Source: a virus
Virus record (IMG/VR): IMGVR_UViG_3300032285_001722
Location: 1-31,163 of that record
Reading direction: 5' to 3' (one strand)
DNA: 31,163 nt
Part shown: in pieces, positions 4,337 through 16,712 of the stretch
Layout of the letters: each line of letters starts with the position of its first letter
Position numbering within the stretch: the first letter of the stretch is position 1
Position numbers and translations under genes: made by a program
Notes under the pieces: generated by a model
Database searches by the model: none
The model's input: the letters and a program-made list of their open reading frames with translations, nothing else
Told to the model about the DNA's origin: nothing

Positions 4337-4558
4337 TTATTTATCTGATTTTTTTAATCTACTAATAGTATTTTTTACTTTATAATTTCTTTCTAATATA
4401 TCACCATATTTTTGGTAATGTTGTATTGCTTCTTCATCTGTTGTAATATCAACATTACAATCTACTCTTGAGTATGTACCATCTTTAAAATAAAGAAAGA
4501 TTGCTTCTTCATCATAATTTCTAACTATACCTATTAATGTTCTTGTTCCTTTTTTCAT
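4337..4558 (-). CDS. Small hypothetical protein, 73 residues
   Basis: Unknown. The N-terminal 40 residues look like a small beta-barrel (TLIGIVRNYDEEAIFLYF, then DGTYSRVDCNVD), followed by a helical basic tail (LERNYKVKNTISRLKKSDK). It sits 17 bp upstream of the zinc-ribbon gene at 4056-4319 and 39 bp downstream of another at 4598-4843, in the same leftward operon. A small RNA- or protein-binding fold is possible but not supported by a known motif. Confidence 0.6.
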   Translation of the reverse strand: MKKGTRTLIGIVRNYDEEAIFLYFKDGTYSRVDCNVDITTDEEAIQHYQKYGDILERNYKVKNTISRLKKSDK

Positions 4559-4843: not shown

Positions 4844-4982
4844 TTTTTAATTTACCTTTTAATTCTTTAATTAAAGCATAATTAATTTTACTATAATATG
4901 CCATTTTACATCTTTTACAACAAAACTTTCTCTGATTGCCAGTAAGTATTGTATCACATCTTAAACATTTTCTTTCTATCAT
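4836..4982 (-). CDS. Zinc-ribbon miniprotein, 48 residues, first gene of leftward operon
   Basis: A short frame starting MIERKCLRCDTILTG. Cysteines at C6xxC9 and C21/C22-x-x-C25 (KFCCKRCKMAYYSK) form a zinc-ribbon or treble-clef-like knuckle. This is the first gene of the leftward operon, transcribed away from the divergent region at 4983-5186. It overlaps the next zinc-ribbon gene by 8 bp. The conserved cysteine spacing and the overlap support coding. Function unknown. Confidence 0.65.
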   Translation of the reverse strand: MIERKCLRCDTILTGNQRKFCCKRCKMAYYSKINYALIKELKGKLKNE

Positions 4983-5071
4983 AAATATTATATTATAATA
5001 ATTTAAAATGTTTATAAACTTTTTTTAAAAAAAGAGCAAACAAAGCCACATATTTTTTATATATATTATAT

Positions 5072-5101
5072 GTTAAGAAATTAAGCGAAGCTTTCCTTAA
5101 C
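5072..5101 (+). promoter_or_regulatory. Imperfect hairpin upstream of the replication gene
   Basis: GTTAAG (5072-5077) pairs with CTTAAC (5096-5101), and AAGC (5083-5086) with GCTT (5090-5093) around a GAA loop, with short internal bulges. No T-run follows, so it is not a standard terminator. It forms the 5' edge of the structured leader. Confidence 0.45.
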
Positions 5102-5102
5102 A

Positions 5103-5183
5103 AAGAGGATTTGGTAGTTTAAAAATGAGTGGATGTCGACAATCCACTCAACCTCTTAAAAACTACATAAAAATAAAACTACC
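5103..5183 (+). promoter_or_regulatory. Structured leader of the replication gene with competing helices
   Basis: A 9-bp perfect stem (TGAGTGGAT 5126-5134, ATCCACTCA 5142-5150) has a self-complementary loop (TGTCGACA). AAGAGG (5103-5108) can pair with CCTCTT (5152-5157). GGTAGTTT (5113-5120) can pair with AAACTACC (5176-5183), just 3 nt before the ATG, or with its first seven bases' partner at 5160-5166. The AAGAGG helix and the GTAGTTT helix interleave, so together they would be a pseudoknot. This may be a translational control element or part of an origin. Confidence 0.5.
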
Positions 5184-5186
5184 GTT

Positions 5187-6380
5187 ATGAATATAACAAT
5201 TCCAACACCTTTGGTTGATATAATCTTCCAATCAATAAATGTAGACGCTACATTTTCATCTTTAACCGAAACACAAAAACAAAAAGTATTTAATAATTGT
5301 ATCGAATTATGGTTATATATCTTCTCACAACAAGATGATGATAAGTATATAAATATACACAATTCAACATTGGATAAGTATTATGTTAAATTAGATAAGA
5401 AATATGGTTATAAATATATTCTTAATATATTAGAAGAAGCTAAAATATTAGAAATTAATAATAAGTTTAAATATGGTAATAATATTGGCAACTTTCCAAA
5501 ATCATATAGAGTTCTTTGTAACTTTACAACTGATAAAAATACCACAGAAATTAATATCAATCTTGATAAAGTATTTAATAATATACAAGATAAACAATAT
5601 TGGATTGCTAAATATCCACAATATGCTCACCTTATTGAAGATTGTTACAAAACAAAAATAGAATTAAATGATTGGGTTTCTTTTTTATATGCTAATGAAA
5701 ATATGAAGTTAAAATCAAATATTAAAAATGGTTTCTTTAAAGAAAGATATTTAAATACTAATAGAATTATGGATTATATTATGAGAGCAATAAAAATTAA
5801 TGTTAATAATCTTTGGTTTGGTATGTCAGCGCAAGGTCGTTTTTATTCTTCTGTTGCATCATTACCATCAATAATTACACCATTTATTAGATTAGATAAC
5901 CAACCTGTTGTATCAATCGATATACCAAATTGTCAACCACTTTTATTATCATCTATTATTAATAATAAAGATTATAAAAAAGATGTAGAAAATGGCGTTT
6001 TTTATGAAAAATTAGGTAAAATAATTTATGGTGAATGGAACGATGATATAAAACAAAAAGTTAAATTACAAGTAATGATAAGATTTTTTAATGAAGACCA
6101 ATTAAAAACAGGTGATTTTTTTACTGCCCTTAATTTTTTATATCCAGGATTTATTAAAGAATTAAATCTTCTAAAAGAAACTAATAAAATCGCCCATATA
6201 ACACATAAAATGGAATCATTAATAATGGTTGATGGAGTAGGGTCATTAAATATGAATAAGTTGTTGAAACACGATGAAGTTATGATTTATAAAGAAAACT
6301 TTGCTATAGTTAAGAGGTTTATTGAGAATAAGATATTTAATATTTTTTCGGTGAAGGTAAATATTAAAGATAATAAATAA
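5187..6380 (+). CDS. Putative replication protein: winged-helix N-terminus plus family A polymerase-like palm
   Basis: A 397-residue protein. Residues about 30-110 resemble a winged helix of replication initiators (helices, then a Y-I-N-I strand and a NFPKSYRVL wing end). Residues 217-370 show a compact family A polymerase-like series. GRFYSS at 217-222 resembles the TGRLSS box. Motif A is VVSIDIPNCQPLLLS with D245. Motif B-like is KVKLQVMIRFF (291-301). YPGF at 319-322 and MES at 341-343 parallel the Y-P and Q-R-x-E elements. Motif C is HDEV with D363. Both catalytic aspartates are thus present. Exonuclease and large fingers/thumb regions are absent, so it is far shorter than Pol I. Inferred role: initiation and/or synthesis of phage DNA. 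The family assignment is from motif reading only. Confidence 0.65.
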   Translation: MNITIPTPLVDIIFQSINVDATFSSLTETQKQKVFNNCIELWLYIFSQQDDDKYINIHNSTLDKYYVKLDKKYGYKYILNILEEAKILEINNKFKYGNNIGNFPKSYRVLCNFTTDKNTTEININLDKVFNNIQDKQYWIAKYPQYAHLIEDCYKTKIELNDWVSFLYANENMKLKSNIKNGFFKERYLNTNRIMDYIMRAIKINVNNLWFGMSAQGRFYSSVASLPSIITPFIRLDNQPVVSIDIPNCQPLLLSSIINNKDYKKDVENGVFYEKLGKIIYGEWNDDIKQKVKLQVMIRFFNEDQLKTGDFFTALNFLYPGFIKELNLLKETNKIAHITHKMESLIMVDGVGSLNMNKLLKHDEVMIYKENFAIVKRFIENKIFNIFSVKVNIKDNK

Positions 6381-6481: not shown

Positions 6482-6518
6482 AAAAAGCACACCATTATTA
6501 GTTAATGGTGTGCTTTTT
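6482..6518 (+). terminator. Strong intrinsic terminator after the replication gene
   Basis: A 16-bp perfect stem (AAAAAGCACACCATTA at 6482-6497; TAATGGTGTGCTTTTT at 6503-6518) with a 5-nt loop is followed by more T (to 6521). The A-tract and T-tract make it usable from both strands. Confidence 0.92.
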
Positions 6519-6536
6519 TTTCTTAATGAAGCAATA

Positions 6537-6583
6537 ATCCTAACGAGGACTGTCTGCGCTCTCCAGCAGCGCAAGGACGATGA
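6537..6583. other. GC-rich structured island, possible small RNA or cis element
   Basis: In an otherwise very AT-rich genome this non-coding stretch is GC-rich. TGCGCT (6554-6559) pairs with AGCGCA (6567-6572) around a 7-nt loop. A flanking GTC pairs with GAC across a small bulge, and CCT-AACG-AGG forms a mini-hairpin upstream. It lacks tRNA features and a T-run. It may be a small RNA, a packaging (cos/pac) site upstream of the terminase block, or an origin element. Confidence 0.4.
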
Positions 6584-6676
6584 CTAATTATTTCGTAAAT
6601 AAAAACAATAAACCATCCTACTTACCAAAAATGCCTTTTTAAAGCTAATATATATCTTATAAAACAACAAGATATT

Positions 6677-7108
6677 ATGAATAACTTTACAAAAGCATCA
6701 GAAAAAGAAAGAGTAGCATTACAAACAATTCTACCATTAACTACAAACTATACAGATACTAATTCATTTAAACCATATGACGCCGTATCTTTAATAAACG
6801 GCAAAAAATATATTATAGAAGCAAAAGTTAGAGATAGGCATTATAATGATTTATTATTGGAGACAAAAAAATATAATTCTTTATTAGAATTATCACAAAC
6901 TCATTCTTGTGCGATTCTATACATAGTTTTTACACCAGTAGGTACTTATATATTTAACTTAACAGAGCTTAAAGAAACACATCCAGAATTGTTTAAAACA
7001 TCTATTTTAAACTGCCCAAAACAAACTATGGGTAATAACCAAAAAATAGACAAATCAGTAATACTTTTAGATATACAATATTCTAAACAAAAACCTTCAA
7101 TATTTTAA
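6677..7108 (+). CDS. PD-(D/E)XK superfamily nuclease
   Basis: The 143-residue protein has the PD-(D/E)XK core pattern: Y34-D35, then a beta hairpin, then the I-I-E48-A-K50 motif (D-x12-E-x-K). An N-terminal helix carries acidic residues and a following helix (ETKKYNSLLEL) is in the usual position. The size fits a single-domain Holliday-junction-resolvase-like or small restriction-like nuclease. It lies between two strong terminators as a single-gene unit, downstream of the polymerase-like gene, so a role in phage DNA processing (resolution of branched DNA, recombination or host DNA degradation) is reasonable. The precise subfamily cannot be told from sequence alone. Confidence 0.7.
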   Translation: MNNFTKASEKERVALQTILPLTTNYTDTNSFKPYDAVSLINGKKYIIEAKVRDRHYNDLLLETKKYNSLLELSQTHSCAILYIVFTPVGTYIFNLTELKETHPELFKTSILNCPKQTMGNNQKIDKSVILLDIQYSKQKPSIF

Positions 7109-15413: not shown

Positions 15414-16712
15414 ATGAGATTAAAGTTTAATAAGTTTAAAGCCGAAGCAGAAATGTCGGTGTGTGTAGTTGACAACATAGGTGGCTGCTACATCAATGTA
15501 GCGCAAGCTCTTTCTAAAGTTTTTAAGAAAGTTTATTACCACTCTGTCAACCAAAATCCATTCCCTATGATTAGTATGCAATCAATTGGTACTGGTTATA
15601 ATAATATAGAAAGAGTAAATGAGTTCTGGTCTAATATTGACCTTTTTGATATTATAATCTTTCCTGATATTTATTTTATGGATTGGGGTAATCATTTAAG
15701 AAAGATGGGTAAATTAGTTTGGGGTGGTTGTCCTTCTGAACAATTAGAAACAGATAGACACATTTTTAAAGACGAATTAGCATCTAAAAATATGGCTGTT
15801 GCACCAACAAAATATATTGTAGGTATAACAAACTTAATTAATTATTTAAAGACAACAGAAAATAAATGGTTAAAGATTTCTTATTTTAGAGGTAATATGG
15901 AGACATTTCATCATATCAATATGAATCAATCTGCTATATGGTTAGAATCATTGAAAGTAAGTATGGGACCTTTAGGTCAAAATATAGAATTTATTGTTGA
16001 AGATTCAATTGAAAGTGTAGCAGAAGTTGGTTATGATGGTTTTACAGTTAATGGTTTAATGACTAATAATCAAATTTGGGGTATTGAAACTAAAGATTGT
16101 TCTTATATTGGTACTGGTACAACTAAAGATTTAACACCTAAACCAGTTCAAGAAATAAACAATAATTATCAATCTATTTTACAGAAATATCATCACATTG
16201 GTTTCTATTCTAATGAAATAAGAGTAGGTAAAGATGGTAAAAACTACTATACAGACGCTGCTATGAGAGCAGGTTCACCGCCATCAGCAACTTATTTAGA
16301 TTTAATTTCTAATTGGAATGAAATAATTGTTGCTGGTTGTAAAAATGAGTTAGTTGAACCAAAGTTTGCTGCTAAATATGGTTGTGAGTTGATATTAAAG
16401 TCTAATTATTGTTATAAAAATTATTTACCTATCACTATTCCAGACGAATATAGAGATAATGTTAAGTTAAAAGGTTCATTTAGATATAATAATCAAGATT
16501 TTATTGTACCATTTGACCAAGGTGGTGTTATGGAAATGGACGCATTTGGTTCTGTTGTCGTTATAGGTGATAGTGTAGATGCTATTTTAAGTCAAGCCAT
16601 TAAGATAGCAGACTCACTTGAAGCATATGGATTAAATTATGATAAAGATGCTTTAAATCGCACTAAAAAGTCTATTAATGATATAACAACAACACTTAAT
16701 GTTAAGTTTTAA
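15414..16712 (+). CDS. ATP-grasp-like ligase (phosphoribosylglycinamide-synthetase-like)
   Basis: A 432-residue, soluble, enzyme-like protein among fibre genes. The N-terminal part (about 15-100) looks like a pre-ATP-grasp alpha/beta domain (MSVCVVDNIGGCYINVAQAL, then DIIIFPD). Residues about 105-330 follow the GARS/carboxylase ATP-grasp pattern: a LETDRHIFKDELASKNMAVA segment, WLKISYFRGNMET, a strand FIVEDSI, then the FYSNEIRVGKDGKNYYTDAAMR region with candidate metal ligands E268 and D281. The C-terminal third is likely the lid/biotin-carboxylase-C-like part. Members of this fold join a carboxylate to an amine with ATP. The substrate here is unknown; modification of a virion protein or a host metabolite is possible. 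The start could also be M14. Confidence 0.68.
   Translation: MRLKFNKFKAEAEMSVCVVDNIGGCYINVAQALSKVFKKVYYHSVNQNPFPMISMQSIGTGYNNIERVNEFWSNIDLFDIIIFPDIYFMDWGNHLRKMGKLVWGGCPSEQLETDRHIFKDELASKNMAVAPTKYIVGITNLINYLKTTENKWLKISYFRGNMETFHHINMNQSAIWLESLKVSMGPLGQNIEFIVEDSIESVAEVGYDGFTVNGLMTNNQIWGIETKDCSYIGTGTTKDLTPKPVQEINNNYQSILQKYHHIGFYSNEIRVGKDGKNYYTDAAMRAGSPPSATYLDLISNWNEIIVAGCKNELVEPKFAAKYGCELILKSNYCYKNYLPITIPDEYRDNVKLKGSFRYNNQDFIVPFDQGGVMEMDAFGSVVVIGDSVDAILSQAIKIADSLEAYGLNYDKDALNRTKKSINDITTTLNVKF

Follow-up and report, generated by a model that had tools for sequence, protein, structure and literature searches.

The window analysed here, an entire virus record of 31,163 bases from IMG/VR, carries on its plus strand (5187-6380) an uninterrupted open reading frame of 397 codons, and the 397-residue product almost certainly contains a palm polymerase resembling those of family A. 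This general kind of enzyme, the TV-Pol-like minimal family A polymerase, has been known since 2008; the branch to which the protein belongs, with a winged helix and glutamine at the position of Klenow E710, is an undescribed variant of it. In the literature consulted, whose coverage is incomplete, no description was found of this branch, with its winged-helix head, its signature D-I-x-N-S-Q-P, and Gln in place of E710, nor of a small tailed phage in which it appears to be the only replication enzyme, nor of the exchange of remote homologues between near-identical phages.

Gene, Protein, and Fold

Chance alone would hardly produce so long a stop-free run: among 300 simulated sequences of 31 kb (first-order Markov, with the composition of the 3.3 kb around the gene), the longest reached 163 codons. 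An earlier note, made from the sequence alone, had recognised in the translation a series of Pol I-like landmarks, and every one of them is found at the residue named: G217-R218 (GRFYSS), D245 (IDIPNCQP), K293 (KVKLQVMIRFF), E343 (MES), and H362-D363 (HDEV). The same note was right about what the protein lacks, namely the exonuclease and more than half of the usual size, its 397 residues amounting to 43% of those of E. coli Pol I.

As for the fold, AlphaFold2 was supplied with the window protein and 24 relatives, and the resulting model has pLDDT values mostly of 80-90 for residues 200-390. The elements expected of a family A core follow one another along the chain. The first is a β-hairpin (residues 211-221; 5817-5849) with the invariant R218, the counterpart of Klenow R668 in the TGRLSS box. 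It is followed by the motif A strand (239-251; 5901-5939), which bears D245 and an N-(S/C)-Q-P signature whose Q250 occupies the position of Klenow E710, and by the fingers helix of motif B (286-301; 6042-6089), where K289xxxK293 stands for RxxxK and the usual Y-K-V-L-F-G is absent. The motif C β-hairpin with H362-D363 (358-368; 6258-6290) comes last. All four are supported by the model, by profile alignment, and by conservation among 47 proteins, while model and conservation define a further helix with the invariant E343 in an LQ-x-x-ES element (335-353; 6189-6245). In the model, D245 closes the strand 239-245 and D363 lies within the hairpin 358-368.

The palm proposed in the earlier note was borne out by the fold search, since every one of the best 50 Foldseek matches in the PDB is a family A DNA polymerase (lowest E 3e-5, probability 1.00), among them the apicoplast polymerase, Bst, Taq, Klenow, and M. 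smegmatis Pol1. In the viral structure library BFVD, the closest neighbours come from phages and match it in size (400-435 residues), for example A0A8D9FR19, "Putative DNA polymerase I [uncultured marine phage]"; none of these was found to be characterised. The relation to PolA at the level of profiles is fainter: the match is weak (P 0.01-0.04; 0.011 when the window protein is left out), but its register is right. D245 is aligned with D705 and the RxxxK element with R754/K758 (K293 with K758), and VHDSI pairs separately with VHDEL. None of 200 column-shuffled profiles reached the observed score (27.9, against at most 21.5). Compared with canonical PolA, the fold, the order of the motifs, and the pair of catalytic aspartates are shared, whereas the protein is under half the size, has no exonuclease, gives no match to the PF00476 profile, and is only about 10-15% identical in structural alignments.

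The N-terminal part deserves separate mention. The earlier reading of it as a winged helix is supported by a confident model in the relatives, but not with comparable confidence in the window protein itself. There, residues about 28-110 (5268-5516) are modelled as helix-helix-helix-strand-strand, and pLDDT is about 30-60 across most of the first 130 residues. When the relatives' domain was modelled by itself, from an alignment that included the window sequence, pLDDT rose to 91.5 and the order was helix, strand, helix, strand, strand. Foldseek retrieved mostly winged-helix domains with this model (MarR-type, cullin WHB, ScpB, eS25); none of the matches is significant, so that no specific DNA-binding family is claimed.

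A Family of Stand-Alone Proteins

Single-sequence searches of Pfam, NCBIfam, and the PDB with the window protein gave no real match, a scan of IMG/VR with this protein alone gave no relatives, and a PDB profile search gave spurious matches only. A PHROG match to a "minor tail protein" (residues 115-213, E 0.0014) was put down to chance: the conserved core lies outside it, and it is not seen in any relative. The way into the family was offered by weak tblastn matches to metagenomic phages of 634-735 kb, whose counterparts are stand-alone genes of about 400 codons and, once aligned, reveal motifs in common with the window protein. This alignment led to 37 loci in IMG/VR and to 10 in GTDB, in genomes of Bacteroidota, Ignavibacteria, and Verrucomicrobiota; one of the latter lies directly 3' of what appears, by inspection, to be a tyrosine integrase gene.

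The relatives, from phages, megaphages, and Bacteroidota-type mobile elements, are about 325-470 residues long and stand alone, and Pfam does not recognise them. A family HMM built without the window protein retrieves it at E=1.3e-23, and hhalign, comparing profiles, links it to the family with 99.0% probability (E 2e-18). R218, D245, Y273, K293, E343, and D363 are invariant in the alignment of 47 proteins. In the RxxxK element the first position is Arg in 32 and Lys in 15, the window protein being one of the latter, and Gln is found at the Klenow E710 position in 46. With regard to existing families, phrog_4756, of unknown function, gave weak matches to other members and none to the window protein. 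One member from a 32-kb phage contig (446 residues; L018, 9251-10591) has S-S-H-A in motif A in place of N-S-Q-P, and it is possibly a bridge to the TV-Pols that have His at this place.

Comparison with Known Minimal Polymerases

In 2008 Iyer, Abhiman, and Aravind defined the TV-Pols, minimal polymerases of the family A type found in viruses and mobile elements, and predicted primase as well as polymerase activity for them (PMC2579912). The earlier note had mentioned uncharacterised mobile-element proteins with an IDI-N-S-Q-P motif; such proteins do exist, but the kind had already been described, both as TV-Pol (PMC2579912) and in CcPol (PMC7581432). With TV-Pols the family shares the nuclease-less minimal core, the hairpin arginine (R218), the two palm aspartates (D245, D363), and the RxxxK of the fingers, together with the type of carrier, mobile elements and viruses, and relatives that adjoin integrases. 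The apparent TV-Pol of Microcystis phage LMM01 also has an LLQRIE element in common with the family, although a direct profile link to this single protein failed, as the alignment covered LLQRIE only.

There are also differences. The N-domain is an α+β winged helix here and all-helical in TV-PolN, the signature is D-I-x-N-S-Q-P, and no D5 helicase partner was found. TV-Pols have neither a fused nuclease nor a conserved nuclease neighbour; a fusion is likewise absent here, and the neighbouring gene conserved in the related phages G003 and G005 encodes a PD-(D/E)XK-like pattern, by motif only.

The best functional model is CcPol of SCCmec, another family A core without exonuclease encoded by a mobile element. 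It has been characterised biochemically: it elongates primers unaided, and together with a partner, MP, it initiates strands de novo (PMC7581432, PMC10061031). CcPol differs in working with this SSB-like protein, in adjoining a helicase gene, and in keeping the Glu of Klenow E710, which is Gln here. No MP-like OB-fold SSB partner was recognised near the window polymerase, the small early genes tested giving no Pfam match, nor was a D5 helicase recognised there.

The Phage Genome and Its Candidate Origins

The first and last 123 bases of the record are identical, and this exact overlap closes the map into a complete circle of 31,040 bp, with the portal gene crossing the junction. Among phage terminases, the best matches to that of the window belong to phages of Bacteroides and Parabacteroides, and Flavobacterium phages are frequent among the matches too, which makes a host in the Bacteroidota probable. 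The earlier note had seen no other polymerase, primase, or helicase in this genome, and the profile searches agree: PF00476, PF00136, PF03796, PF08706, PF01695, and PF01807 have no match in the complete genome, while control genomes do match, which leaves no DnaB, D5, DnaC-like, DnaG, PolA, or PolB recognised by those profiles. Replication enzymes of unknown families may still be present. Most of the other open reading frames above 250 residues resemble structural, packaging, or tail genes, partly by inspection. Within the tail gene cluster lies a 432-residue protein (15414-16712) that reads as ATP-grasp-like and is 91% identical in the sister phage G003. Elsewhere, a small gene on the minus strand, of unknown function, contains an imperfect direct repeat of 36 nt (4337-4558, 4403-4513).

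Where might replication begin? Two hairpin-bearing regions flank the polymerase gene, and either could hold the origin. On the 5' side, the divergent intergenic region 4844-5186, with a strong hairpin near 5127-5149, folds as DNA more stably than its shuffled versions (z -3.2; none of 100 was as stable). On the 3' side, between the polymerase gene and the next one, a conserved non-coding block of 148 nt (6517-6664, plus strand) combines a GCGCT/AGCGC hairpin with a 20-codon open reading frame and is 86% identical in G003. In this relative (L061, 23367-23513) the 20-codon frame is conserved and the hairpin loop differs in sequence and length, and the block has been kept although the polymerase was replaced. 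We regard it as a candidate origin or leader. The block has no match in Rfam, and the idea of a wider element was dropped because other IMG/VR matches to its core were judged to be due to chance. GC skew was rejected as the sole locator of the origin, as it tracks the gene strand.

The next gene (6677-7108, plus strand) encodes a protein of 143 residues with counterparts in G003 and G005. Its D35...E48-x-K50 pattern, which both counterparts keep, is a motif alone and possibly compatible with a PD-(D/E)XK nuclease; Pfam gave no match for this product or for the other small early genes tested.

Exchange among Sister Phages

The IMG/VR relative G003 has the same gene order as the window, and its major capsid protein, terminase, and portal are 91-92% identical. 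Its polymerase locus holds something else: a protein of 325 residues, encoded on the opposite strand and 20% identical to that of the window, which is placed in the same family by profile-profile comparison (98.9% probability, E 2e-17). G009 has a version of the G003 type, 39% identical, and G005 has a third type, located in the structural region. An initial view that G005 had no polymerase gene was rejected when the HMM located the gene there. A homologue is thus found in all four group members that can be checked, in three divergent types and three arrangements. The G003 type also occurs in a prophage-like record of 37.5 kb that derives from an isolate (L071), behind an apparent tyrosine integrase recognised by inspection.

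Near-identical phages with different DNA polymerases at one locus are known among Caudoviricetes, where PolA has been exchanged with PolB (PMC11348598). The present phages show the same pattern, except that the enzymes exchanged are distant members of a single minimal family and that the gene has been inverted or moved elsewhere. The substitution of one equivalent for another suggests that the gene serves replication (compare PMC11348598), and we consider it likely that the polymerase takes part in the replication of the phage DNA. G005 also has genes (L062, 11996-15736) that read like FolE, QueE, QueD, QueC, and a Tgt/DpdA-like protein and are absent from the window; their presence suggests a deazaguanine modification of the G005 DNA.

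Probable Function of the Polymerase

Small tailed phages usually take over the host replisome by means of an initiator or a helicase loader. How would a lone minimal polymerase fit into this scheme? The explanation that we favour, with somewhat better than even confidence and by analogy with the systems above, is that a TV-Pol-like polymerase with a winged helix starts replication at the phage origin, after which the host replisome takes over. The enzyme would consist of a thumb, palm, and fingers core without exonuclease, headed by the winged helix. The latter would bind the origin, for which the hairpin-bearing intergenic regions flanking the gene are the candidates; at this site the core would then begin a DNA strand de novo or lengthen a short primer, and synthesis would be continued by the host replisome. 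The N-terminal domain of T7 RNA polymerase recognises promoters and orients the template (PMC10061031), and a fused winged helix could by analogy bring the enzyme to an origin. We infer DNA synthesis activity itself, just as we do priming, origin binding, and the hand-over to the host. That the protein is a starter, primase or initiator, rather than the sole replicase is given an even chance. Several points count against the favoured explanation: the weak profile relation to PolA, the poorly modelled N-terminus of the window protein, the lack of a recognised MP-like or D5 partner, Q250 in place of Klenow E710, and the unusual motif B.

A full replicative polymerase, copying the 31-kb genome without proofreading and with helicase and primase borrowed from the host, is unlikely, yet it is the alternative that survives best. 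The enzyme is the only polymerase detected in a complete genome, and each of the four checkable phages has a homologue. Against this stand the minimal core, which has no exonuclease or recognised processivity factor, and the extension products of CcPol-MP, which are shorter and less abundant than those of Klenow (PMC7581432). The large phages also speak against it: among 12 large-phage records with a family member, PolB matches are found in 10 and DnaB matches in 7, and this coexistence with PolB disfavours an obligatory replicase of whole genomes and favours a starter or accessory role. The most ambitious version, in which one protein of 397 residues recognises the origin by its winged helix, starts without a primer, copies all 31 kb, and is exchanged as a module among sister phages, appears doubtful.

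The same large phages are an argument for an accessory repair or gap-filling polymerase in a phage replicated by its host. In several of them, where PolB and DnaB are present, the family member may serve a repair or accessory job, and the flexible position and strand of the gene would suit such a role. This explanation is somewhat less probable than a full replicase: the polymerase is retained or replaced by a homologue in every checkable member of the group, the winged helix suggests a specific site, and relatives reside in integrase-bearing elements with few other genes. Least probable is an RNA-synthesising enzyme, either an RNA primase or a T7-like single-subunit RNA polymerase, for despite the fold shared with T7 RNA polymerase and the Gln in place of Glu at the E710 ribose gate in nearly all members, Foldseek places DNA polymerases well ahead of RNA polymerases for the window model, no T7-type promoter-recognition domains are present, and the one characterised relative prefers dNTPs (PMC7581432).

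If the group does rely on a lone family A-type starter polymerase, it would add a way of starting replication to those of tailed phages. It would also offer minimal, naturally swapped versions with which to test what the Pol I fold requires for de novo DNA synthesis, a question standing since the TV-Pol prediction. For annotation, a profile of this family, which Pfam misses and PHROGs mostly leave without a name, would give an identity to many proteins of phages and mobile elements.

In several of the large phages (among G022-G028 and W01-W03) the PolB matches fall in two separate open reading frames of about 400-515 residues, and two of the large-phage PolB frames contain one in-frame stop, so that a split PolB or recoding is possible.
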